A program made the position numbers and the translations under genes. Below the pieces are notes generated by a model. It saw only the letters and a program-made list of their open reading frames with translations. It made no database searches and was not told the DNA's origin. This document shows, piece after piece, positions 2-36,190 of a DNA stretch of 64,000 nt. Numbering within the stretch: position 1 is the stretch's first letter; every line of letters begins with the position of its first letter. Origin of the DNA: Alkalibacter rhizosphaerae (GTDB lineage: Bacteria; Bacillota; Clostridia; Eubacteriales; Alkalibacteraceae); contig NZ_CP071444.1 in the NCBI RefSeq assembly GCF_017352215.1, positions 1,798,001 to 1,862,000 on the forward strand, written 5' to 3'.

Positions 2-1462
2 GGTGCTTTCCCTGAAGTGATCCGGGAACAGTTTCAGCAGATGTTGGAATACTTTGGCCAGTCCCCCATCATCGTCCGGAGCAGCTCCTTGCTGGAAGAC
101 GATTTTGGCAATGCCTTTGCAGGAAAATATGAAAGCGTCTTTTGCGTCAACCAAGGTACACCCGAAGAGCGATACACCGCCTTCGAAACGGCGGTCAAAC
201 GGATCTATGCCAGCACCATGAACGAAGAAGCGCTGTCCTATCGGCTGAATCGGGGATTGTCCGATAAAGACGAGCAAATGGCCATTCTGGTCCAGCGGGT
301 CTCTGGAGATTACCACGACGATTTTTTCTTTCCCCATCTGGCTGGAGTGGGCAACTCATCGAACCTGTATGTATGGGACCAAGGAATCGATCGGAATGCC
401 GGAATGCTGCGGCTGGTGTTTGGACTTGGGACTCGGGCCGTGGACCGGATCCAGGGAGACTACCCCAGGATCGTGTCCTTGGACCGGCCGGAACAGTCCC
501 CCCTGGTGGACTACCAGGATGAGGCCAAGTTTTCCCAGCGCAATGTGGATCTGCTGGACGTAAAAGCCAACCAGTGGACCGACAGGTCTCTGGAAAAGGT
601 GCTGTCTCTGGATTTGGGAACGGATCCCTCCATGTTTGCAAAACCGGATCACAAAACCAACCAACGCATGAAAGAATTGGGTTTCAAGGATCGGCGGCAG
701 TACATCTTGGGATTCGACAGATTGTTGAAGGAAAGTGCATTTCCCGCTTGGATGCGAAAAATGCTGCAGACATTGGAAAGGGTTTATGAATATCCGGTGG
801 ACATTGAATTTACCGCCAATTTCGATAAGGAAGGGGATTTTCGCGTCAACCTGGTCCAGTGCCGCCCCTTGCAGACCAAGGGACCTGGAGAACCGGTGGC
901 CATGCCGAAAACGATCGATGAAACGAACTGCCTCTTTCACTTCACAGGGAATTTTATGGGCGGCAATGTGCGATTGCCCTTGGACTATATTATTTATGTG
1001 GATCCCAAAGCCTACATGGAATCGAGCTTGGAAGACAAGTATGCCACGGCGAGGACGATCGGAGCCTTAAACAGCAAACTCAAAGACGACACGGTGATGA
1101 TCATGGGACCGGGTCGGTGGGGGACCACCACTCCTACTCTGGGAGTTCCGGTCAACTTTTCAGAGATCGGCAATGTGGAGGCCATTTGCGAGATGTCTTA
1201 CAACATCGGCGGGTTCATGCCGGAACTTTCCTATGGCAGTCATTTCTTTCAGGACATGGTGGAATCGAACATCTTTTATGCGGCCATCTTTGACGGGTAT
1301 CCCAATGTAGTTTTCCATCCCCAACGACTGTTGGAGCGGGAGAACCTGCTGGTGACCTTGGAACCATCGGCCATACGGTTGTCGGAAATGGTCCGTGTGG
1401 TCCATGCAGATGGCTTGGAGATCTATTCAGACATCATCAGTCAGCGTGTTTTATGCCAATAA
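2..1462 (+). CDS. PEP/pyruvate-binding domain protein, 5' end outside window
   Basis: The reading frame is open from the first bases of the window (it reads G-A-F-P-E-V-I-R), so the GTG at 17 is an internal Val and the true start lies upstream. The visible part carries the PEP synthase/PPDK N-terminal ATP-grasp signature: SPIIVRSSSLLEDDFGNAFA near its beginning and a QCRPLQ strand near residue 290. The roughly 190 residues after it do not look like the phosphohistidine swivel domain or the PEP-binding barrel of a full PEP synthase, but contain GPGRWGTTTPTLG and a tail ending in VLCQ. It may be a shortened phosphotransfer-type relative. The substrate is unknown. It converges with gdhA across a hairpin. 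Confidence 0.75.
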   Translation, partial: GAFPEVIREQFQQMLEYFGQSPIIVRSSSLLEDDFGNAFAGKYESVFCVNQGTPEERYTAFETAVKRIYASTMNEEALSYRLNRGLSDKDEQMAILVQRVSGDYHDDFFFPHLAGVGNSSNLYVWDQGIDRNAGMLRLVFGLGTRAVDRIQGDYPRIVSLDRPEQSPLVDYQDEAKFSQRNVDLLDVKANQWTDRSLEKVLSLDLGTDPSMFAKPDHKTNQRMKELGFKDRRQYILGFDRLLKESAFPAWMRKMLQTLERVYEYPVDIEFTANFDKEGDFRVNLVQCRPLQTKGPGEPVAMPKTIDETNCLFHFTGNFMGGNVRLPLDYIIYVDPKAYMESSLEDKYATARTIGALNSKLKDDTVMIMGPGRWGTTTPTLGVPVNFSEIGNVEAICEMSYNIGGFMPELSYGSHFFQDMVESNIFYAAIFDGYPNVVFHPQRLLERENLLVTLEPSAIRLSEMVRVVHADGLEIYSDIISQRVLCQ

Positions 1463-1486
1463 AAAAGGTCCTGCCTCGGCAGGACC
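1459..1486 (-). terminator. Intrinsic terminator of gdhA
   Basis: Perfect 8-bp stem GGTCCTGC/GCAGGACC with a four-base loop (1467-1486). On the minus strand the stem is followed by six T residues (the A run 1461-1466), so it is strongest for gdhA. It may also stop transcription of the convergent plus-strand gene. Confidence 0.8.
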
Positions 1487-1500
1487 TTCACACATTTCTT

Positions 1501-2865
<1,365 letters not shown>

Positions 2866-2918
2866 TTAGAATAATGACAATACTGCAGAATAAAGACACC
2901 TGTTTTTATTTTGCTAAC

Positions 2919-2947
2919 ATATTATCATAGAGAAAAGCCTCCTGCAA
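2919..2947 (-). promoter_or_regulatory. Probable gdhA promoter
   Basis: On the minus strand, TTGCAG (2942-2947) is followed after 17 bp by TAATAT (2919-2924), about 70 bp before the gdhA start. The -35 hexamer lies in the 3' arm of the VanY-gene terminator. Confidence 0.4.
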
Positions 2948-2977
2948 CAAAAAAACGATTTAAATTGCAGAAGGCTC
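2933..2977 (-). terminator. Terminator of the VanY-like gene
   Basis: Inverted repeat GCCTCCTGCAA (2937-2947) and TTGCAGAAGGC (2965-2975), one mismatch, with a 17-base loop. It is followed on the minus strand by TTTTCTC just after the VanY-like stop codon. Confidence 0.6.
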
Positions 2978-2983
2978 AAAAAA

Positions 2984-4021
2984 TTACGGTTGTAAACGAT
3001 TTGGGTCGAAATATTCTTCCATGGTTAGGCTGGATTGGTAAATTTCGGTAGCTAAAGAGGTGCCCACATAACGCAAATGCCAGGGTTCGTAGTTGTATCC
3101 GGTAATGTCTTCCTTGCCTTTTGGGTACCGGATGATGAATCCGAATCGATGGGCGTTTTCCGCCACCCACATTCCCTCTGACGTGTCGCCGAAGGAATCG
3201 CTGAGCTGGTTGTTGACGGAGGATGCGGTAATGTCCATGGTCAGCCCCGTCTGGTGCTCGCTGTGTCCTGGTTTTGCGCTGTATTTATTGGCATATTCCA
3301 GTCCGTTTCGCTCCACGCTGGAGCGGTAGAGGCTGTCTTGGGTGCTGTAGGACCGGTAGCCGGATCGGGCCCGCAGTGTAAATCCTTCTTCCTTCGCTTC
3401 CTCAAACAGAGCATTTAATGCATCGGAAGCCGGTTGGCGAAGCTGATTGATCTCTGGGTTTGGCAATACCGTAGGTACGGTCAGTTTTACCAGGTCGGCC
3501 GGAACGTAGTCGGCCGGCAAGGCTCTCTCCTTGTTGACAAGACTGTCGATCTGGGTGAAATCCGTGATGACCCCATTCTCATCGATGTAGTCGGCGGGAT
3601 CTTTCTTGACCAGGATGTTGATCACGACATTGTTCACATTCGTCACCTCTGTAGTGTAAGGATCGGATACTTGAACCTGGATCCAGGAACCGCTCAAGGC
3701 ATCTTGATTTACTATGACTTGCTGTTCTTCGATGACTGCATGCTCGTTTCCGCTTAAAATCTCCAAGGAAAGTCTATCCTGGGGAACGGATTCCTCCGTA
3801 CCGTCGTTGTAAACAAGGGTCAGTTCCGGCTGGACCCGATCGCCGGGCTTTGGATCCAGGTTGGCCCTTCCATCGATGGACCAGGATATGCGGACGGTGT
3901 CGACAAAAACTTCGTCTTTTCCATCGTCCGGCGGATTTGGGCCCGAATCTTCGTCCATGCTGCAGGATGAGGCGAAAATCAAAACCATAAAAATCAGGAT
4001 CAGCGTCAATTTTTTCTTCAT
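2984..4021 (-). CDS. VanY-family D-Ala-D-Ala carboxypeptidase lipoprotein
   Basis: 345 residues. A lipoprotein signal peptide ends in FASSC with lipid-modified Cys20. Residues 30-150 form an Ig-like extracellular segment, and residues 190-325 are an M15B peptidase domain. Zinc ligands and catalytic residue are visible: PGHSEHQTGLTMDI (His256, Asp263) and YEPWHLRYVG (Glu312, His315), plus SGYRSYSTQ upstream. The family trims the terminal D-Ala from peptidoglycan stem peptides. Here it would act outside the membrane. No VanS/VanR/VanH genes are nearby, so a housekeeping wall role is more likely than glycopeptide resistance. RBS GAAAGGAC precedes the ATG. Confidence 0.88.
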   Translation of the reverse strand: MKKKLTLILIFMVLIFASSCSMDEDSGPNPPDDGKDEVFVDTVRISWSIDGRANLDPKPGDRVQPELTLVYNDGTEESVPQDRLSLEILSGNEHAVIEEQQVIVNQDALSGSWIQVQVSDPYTTEVTNVNNVVINILVKKDPADYIDENGVITDFTQIDSLVNKERALPADYVPADLVKLTVPTVLPNPEINQLRQPASDALNALFEEAKEEGFTLRARSGYRSYSTQDSLYRSSVERNGLEYANKYSAKPGHSEHQTGLTMDITASSVNNQLSDSFGDTSEGMWVAENAHRFGFIIRYPKGKEDITGYNYEPWHLRYVGTSLATEIYQSSLTMEEYFDPNRLQP

Positions 4022-6249: not shown

Positions 6250-6350
6250 AGAGTTAGTAGAGGGAGTAGCCGACCGATAGGGATTAAAGTCGTCAATACG
6301 GAGTCTGTATAAGATTCCCGGCTTTAATGGCGCAAGTCCGGCGAGACTCT
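6250..6350 (+). promoter_or_regulatory. yybP-ykoY manganese riboswitch
   Basis: Conserved features of the Mn2+ aptamer are present in order: GGGAGTAGC (6262-6270), AAAGTCGTCAAT (6286-6296), the pairing segment CGGCTTT, and CGAGACTCT closing the element. P1 forms between AGAGT (6250-6254) and ACTCT (6346-6350). The same ACTCT is the 5' arm of the following terminator, so ligand-stabilised P1 would block termination. This matches the known ON behaviour of this class. Confidence 0.9.
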
Positions 6351-6393
6351 GCACCAAACGTCATTTTGTGGCGCTTGTTGCAGAGTTTTTTTA
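6346..6393 (+). terminator. Riboswitch-controlled intrinsic terminator
   Basis: ACTCTGCA (6346-6353) pairs with TGCAGAGT (6379-6386), with CCAAA/TTTGTGG-type pairing inside, followed by seven T. It is mutually exclusive with P1 of the manganese aptamer. Confidence 0.85.
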
Positions 6394-6431
6394 TATGCAA
6401 AACAGGCCCCATCCTAAAGGAGGAAAAGTTT

Positions 6432-7469
6432 TTGGAAGAATTGATGCATGAGTTTTTATTGGGAATGCCCACCTTGGTCTTATTGGGCGTCATTGCCGTC
6501 GCTTTTGTGTTTCTAAGCAAGGGAGCGGACGTCCTGGTGGATGAGGCGGTGGAATTGTCCATTCGATGGGGCGTACCTAAAATGATCATAGGTGCCACCA
6601 TCGTGTCCTTGGGGACCACTTTGCCGGAAGCAAGCGTGTCCGTCTTGGCGGCAATACAAGGGAACGCGGATTTAGCCTTGGGAAATGCCATCGGATCCAT
6701 TATTGCGGATACGGGACTGATCATCGGCCTTGCAGCACTGATCGGTCATTTGCCGGTGGATCAGATGGTGGTGGAACGCCAAGGGAAGATCCAAGTTCTG
6801 GCAGGTTTGCTGCTGGCGGGAGTTGCGTTGCCCTTCTTGTCTCCAGGGGATGGAGGAAGGGTCACCCAGTGGATGGGTTTCGTGTTTTTGATCTTGTTGG
6901 CGGCCTATATCTATACTTCCATCAAATGGTCTCGAATCACCAATGTACTGGAAGATCAGGAAGAAGCCATGGAGAAATCGGTGGCTTTGGAAACGACGGA
7001 AGAAAAGAGTTTGATCGTGTTGCAGATCGTCAAGATCTTTGCAGCCATTACCGTCGTCATCCTATCCTCAAAAGTGTTGATCTCTTCCGTTGAGATCACG
7101 GCGATCCGGGTAGGGATCCCCCAAAGCGTTATAGCTGCCACCCTTGTTGCATTTGGCACTAGTTTGCCGGAGTTGATCACGGCCATCAATGCCGTGCGAA
7201 AAGGTCACGGAGAGTTGGCTGTGGGAAACATCGTCGGTGCGGATATTTTGAACGTGCTGTTTGTTGTGGGAAGTGCGGCTGCCGTTACTACAGGCGGATT
7301 GATCGTACCTGCCAATTACTACAAGCTGCAATTTCCGGCCATGCTGATCATTCTGTTGACGTTCCGATTCTTTACCATGAAAAAAGATGATGTCATCACG
7401 AAAAAAGAAGGTGCTTTTTTACTAGGTGTATACTTGGTATATCTGGTACTGAACTTTACTTGGATCTAA
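6432..7469 (+). CDS. Ca2+/Na+ antiporter family (CaCA) cation exporter
   Basis: 345 residues from a TTG start at 6432, set 8 bp after AAAGGAGG. The in-frame ATG at 6444 is too far from that site, and earlier codons lie inside the riboswitch. The protein has two homologous halves of about five membrane helices, each with the acidic alpha-repeat motif: GTTLPEASVSV...GNAIGSIIADTGLIIG and GTSLPELITAI...GNIVGADILNVLFVVG. The family exchanges Ca2+ or other divalent cations for Na+ or H+. Control by a manganese riboswitch suggests Mn2+ export, though Ca2+ remains possible. A hydrophilic loop near residues 175-195 separates the halves. Confidence 0.88.
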   Translation: MEELMHEFLLGMPTLVLLGVIAVAFVFLSKGADVLVDEAVELSIRWGVPKMIIGATIVSLGTTLPEASVSVLAAIQGNADLALGNAIGSIIADTGLIIGLAALIGHLPVDQMVVERQGKIQVLAGLLLAGVALPFLSPGDGGRVTQWMGFVFLILLAAYIYTSIKWSRITNVLEDQEEAMEKSVALETTEEKSLIVLQIVKIFAAITVVILSSKVLISSVEITAIRVGIPQSVIAATLVAFGTSLPELITAINAVRKGHGELAVGNIVGADILNVLFVVGSAAAVTTGGLIVPANYYKLQFPAMLIILLTFRFFTMKKDDVITKKEGAFLLGVYLVYLVLNFTWI

Positions 7470-7532: not shown

Positions 7533-7561
7533 TTGACTTTGCGAGGGTTATCTTATATTAT
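7533..7561 (+). promoter_or_regulatory. Promoter of the SpoIID-dockerin gene
   Basis: TTGACT, 17 bp, TATTAT, about 53 bp before the start codon. The -10 hexamer and spacing are the same as those of the second cohesin gene (12051-12079). Confidence 0.65.
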
Positions 7562-7614: not shown

Positions 7615-9744
7615 ATGGTATCAAGGAAAAAACGATGGATCGTCTACCTGGTGGTCGCATTGCTGATCGGATGGATCATGCCAGCTACTTCGGCAGCCAC
7701 GGACTACCGTACCATACGGGCGCGCATCACCATGGGATCAAGCAATTTGAAAAGCGTGACCATTGCTTTGAATGGTGATTACGCTTTGATGCAGGATCCT
7801 TCTTTGACCTTGCCCGTGGGAGCCTACACCATCAAGGTGGAAGCAGATGCAACCAACCTGCGTCTTGTGGGCAACGGGATCGACGTCGTTGTGGGACCGG
7901 AGATCCGATTCATCCGGATGAAATACAGCGGGACTGCCGTCAGCACCCTGCGTCTGAACGGAACCTATCATGGCGATAAAAATTATTTGGGGGATATGCG
8001 CTTTCATACATCCTCCGGGTCAATTTTGGTGACCAACCATGTGCCTTTGGAAGAATACTTGTATGGCGTGGTCGCCTATGAAATGAGCAACGCTTTTCCA
8101 GTGGAAGCTTTGAAAGCCCAGGCGGTCAGTGCACGAGGCTATGCCATCATGAGCATGACGGACCGGCGGGATTATGACATCGGGGATACTGCCAGTACTC
8201 AGGTATACAAAGGATATGACCCCAACGTAACAAGAGTCATCCAGGCAGTGAACGAGACCAAGGGCCAGGTAGTGGCCTACAACGACAAGATCGTTTCCAC
8301 CTACTATGCCGCTTCCAATGGGGGTCAGATGGACCTGGTCAGCAATGTGTGGGGATCCAACGATGCATCCTACCCTTATTTGGTGATGAAGGATGATCCA
8401 TACGATCTCAGAAATCCCAGCAGCTTGACTCAAAGAGTTTTTGTTCCATCGCAGGTTACGGGAACGAAGTATGACGTGATCAGTTCTGAAAAGGTGGTGC
8501 GGGTGATCAATGTATCTACCTACTTGAATATACGAAGCGGACCAACGACTTCTTATGATGTTATCGGACAGGCAACGTTGAATCAGTTGTTTGCATATGT
8601 GGGAACCGATGCCTCCGGATGGCATAAGATCAATTTTTACAAAGACGGGAAGCTTACAGTTGGATATGTCAGCGATGATTATAGCGTGGTGGAAACAAAT
8701 CAACAAAACGGGTATCTGTATGGAAATCCTGTTCTGCAGGACCTACAGAAGCAAGTATTTGAACAGATCGGAGCAAGCAATAGTATTGCAAATGCCAATC
8801 AGATCAAAATCAATCAGGTGGACCGGTTCGTCAATGGACAAAGACGTTGGCCGGAGCCTTCCAGAAGCTATGTGACAGCCGTTGCCGATGTAAAGATCCA
8901 ATACAAAAAAGCAGATGGAAGTTTGTCCAATGAAATGGCTGTCACCAACGTGACCATTGCATTGATGATGCCAAACGGTTCCGGCGGTTATTATCTGGGA
9001 CACGATTATTTGAATTCCAACCTTCGCTTGCGGTTTGTGGAAACAGCCCAAGACAATGATGGGATCACCGGCTACAATATTGTCAACTTGCGTTATGGCC
9101 ATGGCATAGGAATGAGCCAGCGGGGTGCCCAGCAAATGGCCAATGAAGGATTAAAATATACGGACATTTTATCTTTTTACTTTGAGGGAACGACCTTGAA
9201 GACTTACGAAACGACCGTACCGGAACTACCAAATAGGGGAGATTCACCACCAGATCCACCGACAAATCCCGAAGAGCCACCAACCACGCCAGAGGATCCT
9301 CCTACTACTCCAAACCCAACCCCAACCGTAACTACTACGACTTATACCCTTGGAGCAAACAGCATCAGCGGAATCAGTGAAAAAACGCCAGTTGAAACAT
9401 TTGTAAGCAAGTTTACAGTCAAAGATGGGTCCTTGGCATTGGTAGGATCGGACAACAAGGCAAAGACTACCGGCAATGTAGCCACTGGCGATGTGCTGTA
9501 TGTCAAAGATGGTGCCGAGAAAATTGTCAAGAGCTATACCATCGTGATCTATGGGGATGTCAATGGGGATGGGGAAATAGATATTTTTGATAGTACTACA
9601 GTTAGGCGGCACATAATGAGTATTACGCAACTCTCGGGTGTATATTACAATGCTGCAAATCTTGTCGACGATAACAATATAGACATTTTTGATTCGACAG
9701 TAATAAAAAGACATATTTTAGGTATTACCTTGATTAAACAATAA
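7615..9744 (+). CDS. Secreted SpoIID/LytB-domain wall enzyme with SH3 insert and C-terminal dockerin
   Basis: 709 residues. A signal peptide ends near residue 27 (IMPATSA). The SpoIID domain begins near residue 115 and has the catalytic-glutamate segment VVAYEMSNAFPVEALKAQAV. It is interrupted by a bacterial SH3 domain at about 300-362 (YLNIRSGPTTSYDVIG) and closes with GHGIGMSQRGAQQMA. SpoIID proteins are lytic transglycosylases acting on glycan strands. A Pro/Thr linker (about 543-568) leads to an X-module-like segment and a type I dockerin: DVNGDGEIDIFDSTTVRRHI and DDNNIDIFDSTVIKRHI. The second calcium loop is slightly degenerate. The next gene encodes a cohesin protein, so non-covalent docking to the surface is inferred. 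Confidence 0.9.
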   Translation: MVSRKKRWIVYLVVALLIGWIMPATSAATDYRTIRARITMGSSNLKSVTIALNGDYALMQDPSLTLPVGAYTIKVEADATNLRLVGNGIDVVVGPEIRFIRMKYSGTAVSTLRLNGTYHGDKNYLGDMRFHTSSGSILVTNHVPLEEYLYGVVAYEMSNAFPVEALKAQAVSARGYAIMSMTDRRDYDIGDTASTQVYKGYDPNVTRVIQAVNETKGQVVAYNDKIVSTYYAASNGGQMDLVSNVWGSNDASYPYLVMKDDPYDLRNPSSLTQRVFVPSQVTGTKYDVISSEKVVRVINVSTYLNIRSGPTTSYDVIGQATLNQLFAYVGTDASGWHKINFYKDGKLTVGYVSDDYSVVETNQQNGYLYGNPVLQDLQKQVFEQIGASNSIANANQIKINQVDRFVNGQRRWPEPSRSYVTAVADVKIQYKKADGSLSNEMAVTNVTIALMMPNGSGGYYLGHDYLNSNLRLRFVETAQDNDGITGYNIVNLRYGHGIGMSQRGAQQMANEGLKYTDILSFYFEGTTLKTYETTVPELPNRGDSPPDPPTNPEEPPTTPEDPPTTPNPTPTVTTTTYTLGANSISGISEKTPVETFVSKFTVKDGSLALVGSDNKAKTTGNVATGDVLYVKDGAEKIVKSYTIVIYGDVNGDGEIDIFDSTTVRRHIMSITQLSGVYYNAANLVDDNNIDIFDSTVIKRHILGITLIKQ

Positions 9745-9763
9745 TTGGACAATGGGAGAGAAA

Positions 9764-10903
9764 ATGAAAATACTTATAAAAAAGCTTCAAACTTTAGGGA
9801 TTTTATTGCTTGCTTTGATTTTATCAGTCAATGTAGTAAGTGCTTCAGGATATACAGTTGGTGCGAATGCATCTTCTTACAATGTTGGTTCAACTGTAAA
9901 AGTCACAGTAACATTCTCTGCTCCCAAAATTATTGGAGTACAGGCCAGTGTTGGTTTTGATTCAGCGGTCTTAAAAGGACCAAATCGAATTTATTTTGAA
10001 AGCGACAGTCAAGATGAGGCTGGACTCAAGGACACTTATACAACGACATTACAGTTTACAACACTAAAAAGTAGCGCTGCTACAACTATTACTATTGATA
10101 ATGTTAAAGTAGGGACAGCAACTGAATTTATCAATATGGGGCAGAAAAGTGTTACAGTTAAGGTTAGTGCTCCTACCCCACCATCAACGACAACCAAACC
10201 TCCAACACAAACTCCAACTACCCCGAAACCCACAGCTCCAGTAGAGCCGGAGCCGGATCCCATGGATGATGCCATCGAGGTGACTTTTGGAAGTGAGAAA
10301 TTGTACTTATGGCCCAAGCTGACGGGGGTCAAGGTCCCAGAAGGGTTCGAAAAAGGAGAAAGCACCTATGGAGAGGACTCCCTTGAAGTGGTGACGAAGG
10401 AACCTCTGGCCTTGGCTTACTTGACCGATGAAGAAGGTGAAAACGGAGCCTTTTGGAACTATGATGAGAAAGAACAAAGTTTTTATCCCTACATAAAAAT
10501 TTCAACACAGAGCACTTATGTTTTCTTGCAACCGGGAGAGGATGTAGTTGTTCCGGAAGGGTACGAAGAAACGTCTGTAACTATCGATGAGCAGACATTG
10601 AACGGTTGGGCCATCGATGATCCGGAGTTAAAAGATTTTGTATTGTTATACGCATTGAATAACGAAGCAGAAGAAGGGTTTTATCTCTACGATAAGGTAG
10701 AGGGGACCATGCAGCGATATGGTGAGCGGATCGTGGAGGTGGAAGTGGAAGTCGAGGTGGAACCGGAACCTCAAACCATCACCCAACAGATTTTTGGGAA
10801 TCCCATTTTGGCCGGTATATTTTCCGGACTGGGATTGTTGGCTGCCGGTTTGGCGGCTGCCTTGATTCGAGTCATACAAAAGAATAAACGTAACTTTCAA
10901 TAA
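9764..10903 (+). CDS. Membrane-anchored cohesin-domain protein A
   Basis: 379 residues starting at ATG 9764 behind GGGAGAG; the ATG at 9752 has no ribosome site. Order: signal peptide to about 28 (ALILSVNVVSASG), cohesin-like beta domain about 30-138 (NVGSTVKVTVTFSAPKIIGV then ASVGFDSAVL), Pro/Thr linker, a roughly 145-residue domain of unknown function with two G-F/Y-Y-D motifs, a Glu/Val stretch, then a membrane helix (ILAGIFSGLGLLAAGLAAAL) and basic tail IQKNKRNFQ. It lies 19 bp after the dockerin gene, so co-transcription is likely. It probably holds the dockerin protein at the membrane. The first 450 bp are markedly AT-rich compared with the rest. Confidence 0.82.
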   Translation: MKILIKKLQTLGILLLALILSVNVVSASGYTVGANASSYNVGSTVKVTVTFSAPKIIGVQASVGFDSAVLKGPNRIYFESDSQDEAGLKDTYTTTLQFTTLKSSAATTITIDNVKVGTATEFINMGQKSVTVKVSAPTPPSTTTKPPTQTPTTPKPTAPVEPEPDPMDDAIEVTFGSEKLYLWPKLTGVKVPEGFEKGESTYGEDSLEVVTKEPLALAYLTDEEGENGAFWNYDEKEQSFYPYIKISTQSTYVFLQPGEDVVVPEGYEETSVTIDEQTLNGWAIDDPELKDFVLLYALNNEAEEGFYLYDKVEGTMQRYGERIVEVEVEVEVEPEPQTITQQIFGNPILAGIFSGLGLLAAGLAAALIRVIQKNKRNFQ

Positions 10904-10904
10904 A

Positions 10905-10934
10905 AAAGACCCGGCGGATCATCCGCCGGGTTTG
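10905..10934. terminator. Bidirectional terminator between cohesin gene A and the K+ channel gene
   Basis: Perfect 11-bp stem ACCCGGCGGAT/ATCCGCCGGGT around a single C, with an A run before it and TTT after it, between convergent stop codons. Confidence 0.85.
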
Positions 10935-10936
10935 GT

Positions 10937-11953
10937 TTATCCATTCTTGGGGCACGCCATGACCTGCAATTTTTTGACTTGGGCTTCTTGTCCCAGGACG
11001 ATCATGGTATCTCCATCTTGAAGTATTTCCGTTGAACTTGGATTGAAAGTCAGCTTGGTTGAATTTTTTCTTTTTAAAGCAAGAACGACCAACCCGGTGA
11101 TTTCAGGGATCTTAGCATCCATAAGGGCCAAGTTCACCAATTCGGATCCATTGCATATGGTCACTTCTTCCAGATCCAAAGTAACGTCTCCGGCCTGGGT
11201 GATGATGTCTAGAAAGGAGATGACAGATGGCCTTAGGACCAGGGATGCCATCCTGCGTCCGCCGATCTCATTAGGAGAGATGGTGTTGTTGGCTCCCGCT
11301 TTTCTCAACTTGTTGTGTGCATTCTTTTCGATGGCTTTGGAAACGATATAGATATCCTCATTCATTTGTCTTGCTGTCAGTACGGTAAATACGTTGTCCG
11401 CATCATTGGACAGGGTGCAAATGACTCCTTTGGAATGGGCAATGTTGGCTTGCTCCAGGGTGTCTTCACTGGTGGCGTCTCCCAAGATCACCAAACAATT
11501 CTCCTTGATCAGTTCTTCAAACCTTTTTTGGTTTTTTTCAATGACGACAAAAGGAACGTTATTTTCTTGAAAAGAGTCGATCACCGTATGGCCGATCTCC
11601 CCTGCACCGCAAACAATATAATGATCTGTCAACTGTTTTATCTTGTTTTCCATTTGCTTTCGCCTCCAGGCATCTTTGAGTTCTCCTTCAAAAAACAGAG
11701 CCACTAAACTGGTGATTCCATAACCCGCCACAGACAATCCTGCAAAGATGATCCCAATGGAAAAAAACTTGGCCGGGTCCGTCATTTCAGCTACCTCGCC
11801 ATAACCGACAGTGGATATGGTGATAACGGTCATGTAGAGGGCATCAATGAAATTTATTCGGAGCAGATTCATGTATCCGATGACGCCAACGGTGATGATG
11901 ATGATAAATGTGGTGATGATAAATATGAACTTCCTTCTCGCTTCCATCTTCAC
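10937..11953 (-). CDS. Two-helix potassium channel with RCK (TrkA-N/TrkA-C) domains
   Basis: 338 residues. Helix one (FIFIITTFIIIITVGVIGYM), pore loop with selectivity filter TISTVGYGEVAE, and helix two make a 2TM K+ channel. The cytoplasmic part has the TrkA-N nucleotide-binding fold (VCGAGEIGHTVIDSF, about residue 115) and a TrkA-C domain from about 250. Such MthK-like channels are gated by ligand binding to the RCK ring. It lies on the opposite strand between the two cohesin genes and is transcribed alone. No functional link to the surface proteins is evident. Confidence 0.9.
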   Translation of the reverse strand: MKMEARRKFIFIITTFIIIITVGVIGYMNLLRINFIDALYMTVITISTVGYGEVAEMTDPAKFFSIGIIFAGLSVAGYGITSLVALFFEGELKDAWRRKQMENKIKQLTDHYIVCGAGEIGHTVIDSFQENNVPFVVIEKNQKRFEELIKENCLVILGDATSEDTLEQANIAHSKGVICTLSNDADNVFTVLTARQMNEDIYIVSKAIEKNAHNKLRKAGANNTISPNEIGGRRMASLVLRPSVISFLDIITQAGDVTLDLEEVTICNGSELVNLALMDAKIPEITGLVVLALKRKNSTKLTFNPSSTEILQDGDTMIVLGQEAQVKKLQVMACPKNG

Positions 11954-12050
11954 TCCCCGTTCAAGTCAGTATAAGGTTTTCGTTTTTAAGAATACCTTGA
12001 AAATAGTATATCAATGATTTGCTCTTCCGTCCACAACTGGGCTAGTGTGT

Positions 12051-12079
12051 TTGACATTGCAGGGTGGTTTATATATTAT
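12051..12079 (+). promoter_or_regulatory. Promoter of cohesin gene B
   Basis: TTGACA, 17 bp, TATTAT, 30 bp before the start codon. Consensus -35, and the same -10 as the SpoIID-dockerin promoter. Confidence 0.75.
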
Positions 12080-12109
12080 GAATTTAGTAAATATTAAAGG
12101 CGGAATGAA

Positions 12110-13201
12110 ATGATACGACGTATAAAGTATGCATCTGTTTTCATGATTTGTTGGTTGTTTTTACTACAACCTGTCTTGGTTTTTGGACAAGAGTCCACCC
12201 TGAATCTGGATGCGAATCGCACGGAGTTGGAAGTCGGGGATTATGTGCAGGTGACCATGGTTTTTACCGGGGAAGAAGATATCGGATCCATCAATGCCTC
12301 CTTGCGCTACGACAGTACCAGGCTGCGGTATGTTTCCGGCAACAGCAATGCCCTGGTTATGGGAAATGGGACTGGAAGCCTGTCGGATACTTTTTCCCAA
12401 GGGATCGATCGGCTGACCTATAGTTTGGAATTTGAAGCGATCGCTGACGGAAGTGCAGGGGTAGAGGTATCAAACAGCGAAATCATATCTGCACTGACTG
12501 GAAGAAGTTTGGGTAATCCTACCGCAGTTGAGCAAGTCCGAATTTCTCCGAAGCAGGTGGAAGAACCGGAAGTGGAAACTCCGGTGGAACCACCGGAAGA
12601 AACGACGGTCATTATTAAAAGTCATTTGGGGGAAGATGTATACGTCATGGAAGAATTTCCGGACCACATGCTACCTGATGGATTCTATAAAAAATTCTTC
12701 ACCGTGTCGGGCAACGACATCGAAGGGGCCACCAACGAGGAAGAAGCATGGAAAGTATTTTATGGGATCAGCGAGCAGCTAAGGGAAGGGTTGTATTTCT
12801 ATCATGATAAAAGGGAAGTGTTATATTCTTATGTGCCGATGACGTTTGACCACGAATTGGTGTTGTTGCCTTTTGAAAAAACGTTCCAAGGACTTGACCA
12901 GGTAGTAGCAAACATTCAGGGAATGGAAGTTTTGACCTATAATATGAAGAAAGACGGTTTTTATTTGCTCTATGGAATGGATGTAAACGGCGTAAAAGGA
13001 TATTATAGTTACGACATGGAAGAAGATACATTTCAGAAAGTAAACATTCAGGAAACCGACGTACAATCAGAAACGATTTCGGAAGCTGGTGAAGAAAGAC
13101 GAATCTATTTGATTTTGGGGATCCTTGCCTTGATCTGTTTGATTTTACTGGGGTCCATCCTTTACTTCCGAAAAAGCGACAAGACTCAGAAAGTGCAATA
13201 G
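12110..13201 (+). CDS. Membrane-anchored cohesin-domain protein B
   Basis: 363 residues, paralogous in layout to the protein at 9764. Signal peptide to about 26 (LLQPVLVFGQ); cohesin-like domain about 28-145 (LEVGDYVQVTMVFTGEEDIG, then ASLRYDSTRLRYVSG); acidic/Pro linker; about 145-residue unknown domain with GLYFYHDKREVLYSY and GYYSYDMEEDTFQKV; membrane helix near 326-346 (LILGILALICLILLGSILYF); basic tail. The cohesin is only distantly like that of protein A, so the two may bind different dockerins. It has its own strong promoter. A role as surface receptor for dockerin proteins is inferred from domains and neighbours. Confidence 0.78.
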   Translation: MIRRIKYASVFMICWLFLLQPVLVFGQESTLNLDANRTELEVGDYVQVTMVFTGEEDIGSINASLRYDSTRLRYVSGNSNALVMGNGTGSLSDTFSQGIDRLTYSLEFEAIADGSAGVEVSNSEIISALTGRSLGNPTAVEQVRISPKQVEEPEVETPVEPPEETTVIIKSHLGEDVYVMEEFPDHMLPDGFYKKFFTVSGNDIEGATNEEEAWKVFYGISEQLREGLYFYHDKREVLYSYVPMTFDHELVLLPFEKTFQGLDQVVANIQGMEVLTYNMKKDGFYLLYGMDVNGVKGYYSYDMEEDTFQKVNIQETDVQSETISEAGEERRIYLILGILALICLILLGSILYFRKSDKTQKVQ

Positions 13202-15230: not shown

Positions 15231-15269
15231 TAAGGTAACACAAATTTATCAATGAACTAAATAATTTGA

Positions 15270-15345
15270 AAAAGGTAAACTTGGTGAAAGCCAAGGACAC
15301 AAAGCATGAAGTCTAAGGTCGAAAGACTATGACGGTTCAGCTGCC
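15270..15345 (+). promoter_or_regulatory. c-di-GMP-I (GEMM-I) riboswitch
   Basis: The element has the GEMM-I order: GGTAAAC, a short hairpin TTGGTGAAAGCCAA with a GAAA tetraloop, the conserved GGACACAAAGC, and a second hairpin carrying the tetraloop-receptor halves CTAAGG and CTATGAC, ending in GGTTCAGCTGCC. GGTA (15274-15277) can pair with TGCC (15342-15345), which is also part of the terminator's 5' arm. If that pairing is real, c-di-GMP binding would favour read-through. The switch direction is inference. Confidence 0.9.
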
Positions 15346-15370
15346 AAATTTAATTTGGCAGCTTTTTTTA
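15339..15370 (+). terminator. Riboswitch terminator before the adhesin gene
   Basis: AGCTGCCAAATT pairs with AATTTGGCAGCT and is followed by seven T, 30 bp before the adhesin start codon. Its 5' arm overlaps the 3' end of the c-di-GMP aptamer. Confidence 0.88.
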
Positions 15371-15399: not shown

Positions 15400-19215
<3,816 letters not shown>

Positions 19216-36086: not shown

Positions 36087-36107
36087 ATAGTAGGAATTTA
36101 CCTTTAA

Positions 36108-36132
36108 GTTGGTCCTGTGAGGCTGGTAAGGT
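36108..36132 (+). promoter_or_regulatory. PyrR-binding loop of the pyr attenuator
   Basis: GGTCCTGTGAGGCTGGTAAG matches the conserved PyrR-binding RNA (TCCNGNGAGGCT ... AAGG). With UMP, PyrR would hold this anti-antiterminator and allow the downstream terminator to form. Confidence 0.88.
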
Positions 36133-36151
36133 GATGCATAGAGTCGTACGC

Positions 36152-36190
36152 AGAATCTTTTTACCATGCCGTAAAAAGATTTTTTTTTTG
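36152..36190 (+). terminator. pyr attenuator terminator
   Basis: AATCTTTTTAC pairs with GTAAAAAGATT around CATGCC and is followed by about nine T. It ends about 35 bp before the pyrR start. Confidence 0.9.

Follow-up and report, generated by a model that had tools for sequence, protein, structure and literature searches.

Alkalibacter rhizosphaerae encodes a predicted secreted enzyme of the SpoIID/LytB type that ends in a dockerin, followed 7 nucleotides downstream by the gene of a membrane protein with a cohesin (cohesin protein 1). A second membrane cohesin gene (cohesin protein 2) lies nearby. The genes were found in a 64,000-nucleotide stretch of contig NZ_CP071444.1 (positions 1,798,001 to 1,862,000), here called the window, and all coordinates refer to it unless another contig is named. 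The pair belongs to a two-gene unit that recurs in many Clostridia and Bacilli. An earlier note, made from the sequence alone, had described the three proteins as a non-cellulosomal cohesin-dockerin surface assembly, and their open reading frames (ORFs) lie where it placed them. The main features are as follows.

7615-9744, + strand: secreted SpoIID/LytB-type enzyme of 709 residues with an inserted SH3 domain, an X-like module and a C-terminal dockerin (profiles)
8014-8280, + strand: N-terminal part of the SpoIID domain, with Glu156 (PF08486, residues 134-222)
8521-8682, + strand: SH3_3 insertion within the SpoIID fold (PF08239, residues 303-356)
9079-9207, + strand: C-terminal part of the SpoIID domain, with GHGIGMSQRGA (residues 489-531, aligned to 4rwr)
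9334-9546, + strand: X-like module preceding the dockerin (residues 574-644), conserved in both congeners and in relatives
9550-9720, + strand: dockerin of two repeats with matching IDIFDST (PF00404, residues 646-702)
9752-10903, + strand: membrane cohesin protein 1 of 383 residues, likely the dockerin partner (profile and predicted fold)
9842-10171, + strand: cohesin domain of protein 1 (residues 31-140; predicted fold, family profile)
10262-10726, + strand: juxtamembrane beta domain of protein 1 (about residues 171-325; alignments, predicted strands 175-322)
10802-10897, + strand: C-terminal transmembrane helix of protein 1 (residues 351-382)
12110-13201, + strand: membrane cohesin protein 2, a separate transcription unit (marginal PF00963, hydropathy)

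The enzyme scores 91.3 bits against the Pfam SpoIID family (PF08486), 36 bits against SH3_3, 30.5 bits against Dockerin_1 (PF00404, curated cutoff 22.9) and 191 bits against TIGR02669, SpoIID_LytB (cutoff 83.3), in agreement with the SpoIID-type dockerin enzyme first described. It falls below the equivalog cutoff of TIGR02870, stage II sporulation protein D (127.5 against 234.75). The SH3 domain, absent from the earlier description, separates the two SpoIID pieces. In an alignment with Bacillus anthracis SpoIID (4rwr), Glu156 falls on a Glu that we take to be the catalytic residue. Synteny of the locus extends to two congeners, Alkalibacter mobilis M17 DMB and Eubacteriaceae UBA12179, and all three species retain intact SpoIID motifs. 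No other SpoIID protein was found in the host genome. The enzyme is a predicted wall-cutting lytic transglycosylase. What had been called an X-module is a conserved, X-like module of approximately 70 residues with no Pfam match, and need not be the cellulosomal X module.

The search against the Pfam dockerin and cohesin families, proposed in the earlier note for all three proteins, gave a clear match for the dockerin. Cohesin protein 1 has no Pfam match at E 0.1, PF00963 included, and cohesin protein 2 is borderline, with 23.7 bits against PF00963 as a protein (cutoff 24.1) and 25.4 bits, above the cutoff, in a genome search. A profile built from six Alkalibacter cohesin domains has 17 matches in the PDB at E up to 10 (best E 1.5e-4). 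Cohesin or cellulosome entries, among them two labelled endoglucanase, make up the top 15; a flagellin and a viral polyprotein come last. The predicted fold of protein 1 (model residues 30-138) aligns with the Clostridium perfringens cohesin-like module 2jh2 over 105 residues, with a Z score of 13.1 and a root-mean-square deviation of 2.2. Hydropathy places one C-terminal helix in each cohesin protein. Of the two cohesins described earlier, protein 1 is supported by profile and fold, and protein 2 is marginal by its PF00963 score.

The juxtamembrane beta domain of protein 1 is covered by no family in Pfam or NCBIfam scans. The domain, which ends in a YAxNxxGxxGxYxYDxxExTxQRY motif, recurs ahead of the membrane helix of cohesin proteins in many Clostridia and Bacilli. 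Protein 1, rather than both cohesins equally, is likely the partner of the enzyme.

The window dockerin is composed of two loop-helix repeats with a spacing of 34 residues and IDIFDST in both loops. Loop 1 has a full set of calcium ligands, whereas in loop 2 the ligand positions 1 and 3 are occupied by Asn and Val, which gives its calcium site a degenerate appearance. The loop symmetry (Ile-Phe and Asp-Ser-Thr) noticed earlier in this dockerin extends to its relatives. Parsing succeeded for 90 of 133 dockerin proteins, and the comparison used the 81 unique dockerins. Identity between repeats 1 and 2 over positions 8-23 is 0.716 within proteins and 0.291 between mismatched proteins, with a maximum of 0.351 in 5000 permutations. 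The within-protein excess is located mainly at positions 9-11, 13-15, 17, 18 and 20-24 and is absent at positions 2, 4 and 5. Recent internal duplication was rejected as the source of the matching repeats, since positions 2, 4 and 5 match equally between proteins. The excess at recognition positions points instead to selection on two equivalent binding faces. The repeat match at these positions is what dual-mode binding would predict.

The two-gene unit in relatives

Among 61 relatives of the order group, dockerins are present in 25 and cohesins in 16. An unbiased set of loci was obtained by scanning named genomes with the X-dockerin end alone, and the best 80 of 111 gave 79 loci. A next gene is present at 77 of these and matches a cohesin profile, built from 18 seeds, in 54 (two of the 54 loci are from the congeners, which also supplied cohesins to the seed set). 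Cohesin matches at other neighbour positions number 2 of 48, 2 of 50, 2 of 50 and 1 of 44, and elsewhere 0. All 54 cohesin-matching next genes encode an N-terminal hydrophobic stretch, and 49 of them a later helix; both are also encoded by 16 of the 21 same-strand next genes that have no profile match. A Lachnospiraceae set, which overlaps the 79 loci in part, comprises 42 loci, 32 of them with a dockerin frame and 30 of those with a next gene, and the next gene matches the cohesin profile in 29 of the 30. The 21 order-level loci were hand-picked, 14 of them for a nearby cohesin, and no rate was derived from these. Far from being a lone oddity, the window pair represents a widespread two-gene unit that many Clostridia and Bacilli carry. 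In another genus of the order (locus L015), a cohesin gene with a transmembrane segment follows the gene of a long dockerin protein, part of which looks SGNH-like by eye.

The enzymes carried by the unit are mostly of one kind. A glucosaminidase-like domain profile built from twelve members matches 68 of the 79 dockerin proteins. An earlier glucosaminidase profile, built from seven proteins, matched 11 of 101; given the different seed members, the two counts point to at least two glucosaminidase subfamilies. A profile of 40 dockerin proteins, two of them SpoIID, matches SagB (6u0o, 1.4e-29, the best PDB match), AtlE, Atl and Acd. The Pfam glucosaminidase family PF01832 matches 7 of 10 proteins in the hand-picked order-level set. 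One dockerin protein is an S11 carboxypeptidase, and three loci with proteins of approximately 1700 residues, together with a few others, are not glucosaminidase-like. Genus g244, which holds the Lachnospira locus L120 and its identical copy L242, has a relative of the enzyme in 21 of 22 genomes and a dockerin, by pattern, at 15 of 21 loci. With 68 of 79 proteins resembling Atl/SagB glucosaminidases, the theme of the unit appears to be peptidoglycan.

This recurrence with wall enzymes bears on the idea that the window pair is a functionless relic of an ancestral cellulosome. The best-known members of both families are indeed cellulosome cohesins and dockerins. A relic is nevertheless very improbable, as synteny is kept and the SpoIID motifs are intact in three species, and the repeat symmetry is maintained.

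Block replacement across the gene boundary

Thirty-one close pairs of loci were compared. Six are identical (five of them inferred to be the same genome twice) and two are repeats of one pair, which leaves 23 distinct pairs. In three of the 23, the flanks are conserved but a block of 0.7-0.9 kb between them, spanning the dockerin and the adjacent cohesin domain, has been replaced. The block edges used for the identity figures were set by eye, and pairs with an identity of 1.0 from very short alignments were ignored. DNA identities for the three pairs are listed below.

g19 pair (two single-contig genomes): block 0.647; left flank 0.924, right flank 0.914
L250/L252: block 0.469; left flank 0.879, right flank 0.940
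L136/L231 (X-like module inside the block): block 0.606; left flank 0.970, right flank 0.948

A fourth pair, L141/L171, dips but remains below the replacement criterion. At four-fold degenerate sites, identity is 0.17-0.61 in the block and 0.53-0.95 outside it, although some counts are small (6-49 codons). Because these sites are also diverged in the block, amino-acid selection alone is insufficient to explain it. In g244, the divergence of the dockerin correlates with that of the cohesin when the rest of both genes is allowed for (partial Mantel 0.58, p 0.0005; 0.48, p 0.0015 without L250 and L252), and the control correlations are 0.16 (p 0.13) and -0.01 (p 0.49). The putative dockerin-cohesin cassette is replaced repeatedly in relatives.

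The same divergence could arise with no exchange, if the dockerin and cohesin domains evolved fast in place under matched diversifying selection. In favour of this, no other part is as poorly conserved as the cohesin domains in any of the three Alkalibacter comparisons (0.30-0.38), and in two of the replaced pairs the two cassettes are still sisters or near sisters of one another. Such evolution would not readily give sharp edges at the domain limits between flanks that are 88-97% identical, the divergence at four-fold sites described above, or the lack of such a dip, by the criterion used, in 20 of the 23 distinct close pairs. Fast evolution in place is therefore considered unlikely. Two results do count against exchange of a matched cassette. 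Across 29 family loci, dockerin and cohesin correlate only about as strongly (0.206) as do the dockerin and the rest, the control (0.201). The cassette tree also does not reject a single Alkalibacter clade (p 0.505), and it joins L136 with L231, so that it lends no support to a foreign donor.

The window has a putative cassette of its own, marked by a low G+C content at third codon positions (GC3).

9574-10222, + strand: low-GC3 island over the dockerin, the gene boundary and the cohesin domain; putative exchangeable cassette

The GC3 is 0.236 within the island and 0.524 outside it, with a likelihood ratio of 59.8 compared with at most 21.7 in 60 shuffles. The island begins inside the first dockerin loop and ends just beyond the cohesin domain. 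In 8139 windows (146 codons each) drawn from 355 ORFs of the genome, an equally low GC3 occurs nowhere outside the gene concerned. Weighing on the other side, the block tends mildly towards low GC3 in general, at 34 of 52 loci (p 1e-4 for the dockerin, p 0.25 for the cohesin alone). Low GC3 there is also seen in both congeners and is absent from a second dockerin-cohesin pair of the genome, which carries an S8 protease. Given this distribution, cassette replacement in the window lineage is likely only. The cassette tree places the window with UBA12179, and no donor was found for the window cassette. A foreign origin of the A. mobilis cassette was also considered, since its best dockerin and cohesin matches lie outside the genus, but was not retained because the one-clade tree is not rejected (p 0.505).

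Host genome and neighbouring features

A whole-genome profile search returned two PF00404 and two PF00963 matches only. Each of the two dockerin genes adjoins its own cohesin gene. No multi-cohesin scaffoldin was found in the genome (two dockerins, two Pfam cohesins); cellulases and carbohydrate-binding modules were not searched for genome-wide. These counts fit the label "non-cellulosomal" given to the locus at the outset. The second pair is unlinked, at approximately 0.855 Mb of G000:C1, and consists of an S8 protease with a dockerin followed by a cohesin gene with a transmembrane segment. In this region (L005, G000:C1:848000-864000), the cohesin gene of the pair is of a cohesin/Cadherin-like/transmembrane kind, and transposase-like genes lie beside the pair. 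The congeners have a single dockerin each, with no second dockerin match.

The S8 pair raises the question of whether the cohesins hold other partners, or the enzyme docks on neighbouring cells, so that the system serves adhesion or cell-cell contact instead of wall growth. Some dockerin partners in the order of the window likewise have no recognised wall domain, and a nearby InlB-repeat membrane protein suggests a surface-protein locus. Adhesion nonetheless has a low probability in our judgement, with both dockerin genes of the genome adjoining their own cohesin gene and glucosaminidase-like enzymes dominating the wider set (68 of 79).

Other sequence features near the gene pair are listed below.

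7533-7561, + strand: promoter-like site upstream of the enzyme gene (TTGACT-17-TATTAT, consensus match only)
10909-10931, no strand assigned: terminator-like hairpin closing the two-gene operon (10-pair stem; the scan lists the - strand)
12051-12079, + strand: promoter-like site upstream of cohesin gene 2 (TTGACA-17-TATTAT, consensus match only)

The scan returned 13 promoter-like sites compared with 11.2 expected by chance, and 7 terminator-like hairpins compared with 5.2. A sodium/calcium exchanger gene (6327-7469) is located directly upstream of the dockerin enzyme gene, as it is in A. mobilis. Dockerin folding is calcium-dependent. Downstream, a c-di-GMP-I riboswitch (15264-15348, 77.2 bits) precedes the gene of a 1271-residue membrane protein with InlB/Flg_new repeats (15400-19215), and the same arrangement exists in A. 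mobilis (L014:3337-3421 and 500-3301). No riboswitch was found near the two-gene unit in ten other loci. A PyrR binding site at 36097-36189 scores slightly above its gathering score.

Proposed tethering of wall enzymes

Taken as a whole, the best explanation is a tether with an exchangeable, matched dockerin-cohesin cassette, which we regard as probable. The SpoIID-type enzyme would be exported, and its C-terminal dockerin would plug into the cohesin encoded next door, which in turn would be held in the membrane by its C-terminal helix. The enzyme would then be kept, non-covalently, at the membrane face of the wall, where it would presumably cut. Since the dockerin ends the first gene and the cohesin starts the second, the matched lock and key would form one DNA block of 0.7-0.9 kb, replaceable by recombination in a single step. 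The membrane docking proposed in the earlier note gains strong indirect support from the cohesin next gene (54 of 77 loci), its later helix (49 of 54), the other wall enzymes and the joint replacement of the block.

Several observations weigh against this tether. The predicted model of the fused dockerin and cohesin has a predicted template modelling score of 0.51. Loop 2 of the window dockerin is without a calcium ligand. The next gene is not cohesin-like by profile at 23 of 77 loci, and PF01832 at 1e-3 matches only 2 of 76 dockerin proteins.

The unit resembles several known systems in part. SpoIID of sporulating Firmicutes, a sporulation engulfment enzyme, has the same domain and conserved Glu; the enzyme described here differs in its SH3 insert and dockerin and in being the sole SpoIID of its genome. 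The non-cellulosomal cohesins of C. perfringens (2jh2, 2vo8, 2w1n) are the closest to the modelled fold of cohesin 1, but they are part of a secreted glycoside hydrolase, whereas here the cohesin is on a membrane protein. The type I cohesin-dockerin pair of the cellulosome belongs to the same Dockerin_1 and cohesin families, and the two matched repeats would suit the dual binding described in the available part of PMC5429695. In contrast to the cellulosome, the window has one peptidoglycan enzyme and one membrane cohesin, with no multi-cohesin scaffoldin found in the genome. The Ruminococcus bromii amylosome (PMC5814915) and the Limousia mucinolysome (PMC12997984), as far as the available parts of these sources describe them, are also surface cohesin-dockerin complexes not directed at cellulose. 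Their scaffoldins gather several glycan-degrading enzymes for feeding, whereas here a single enzyme would act on the cell's own wall.

A functional parallel is SagB-SpdC of Staphylococcus aureus, in which an integral membrane partner keeps a glucosaminidase at the membrane and nascent glycan strands are released, according to the available part of PMC12272431. A non-covalent membrane tether for a wall enzyme would make sense in this light. SpdC differs in being a CAAX-protease-family protein, and cohesins and dockerins are unmentioned in that part of the source.

The tethering of wall enzymes with an exchangeable recognition cassette would be a widespread and little-described use of cohesin and dockerin. 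No publication on such a unit was found in a search of the openly licensed literature. The co-presence of cohesins and dockerins is otherwise read as a sign of cellulosome-like complexes, judging from the available part of PMC12997984. More tentatively, cohesin-dockerin may have begun or spread as a general tether for a cell's own peptidoglycan enzymes, with the head-to-tail gene order turning lock and key into a transferable compatibility cassette, traded so that the enzyme stays private to a bacterium's own cells or for escape from phages or bacteriocins that would exploit the exposed socket.

Cohesin-dockerin, known as the connector of the cellulosome, seems to have a housekeeping role in the wall growth of many Firmicutes from the gut and the environment. 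Such a role would account for the frequent isolated dockerins and cohesins of non-cellulolytic genomes. The replacement of plug and socket together would be direct evolutionary evidence on which proteins bind each other, and protein engineers would have in the replaced cassettes a natural collection of orthogonal pairs. It also raises the testable question of which selective pressure favours a new lock on such an enzyme.

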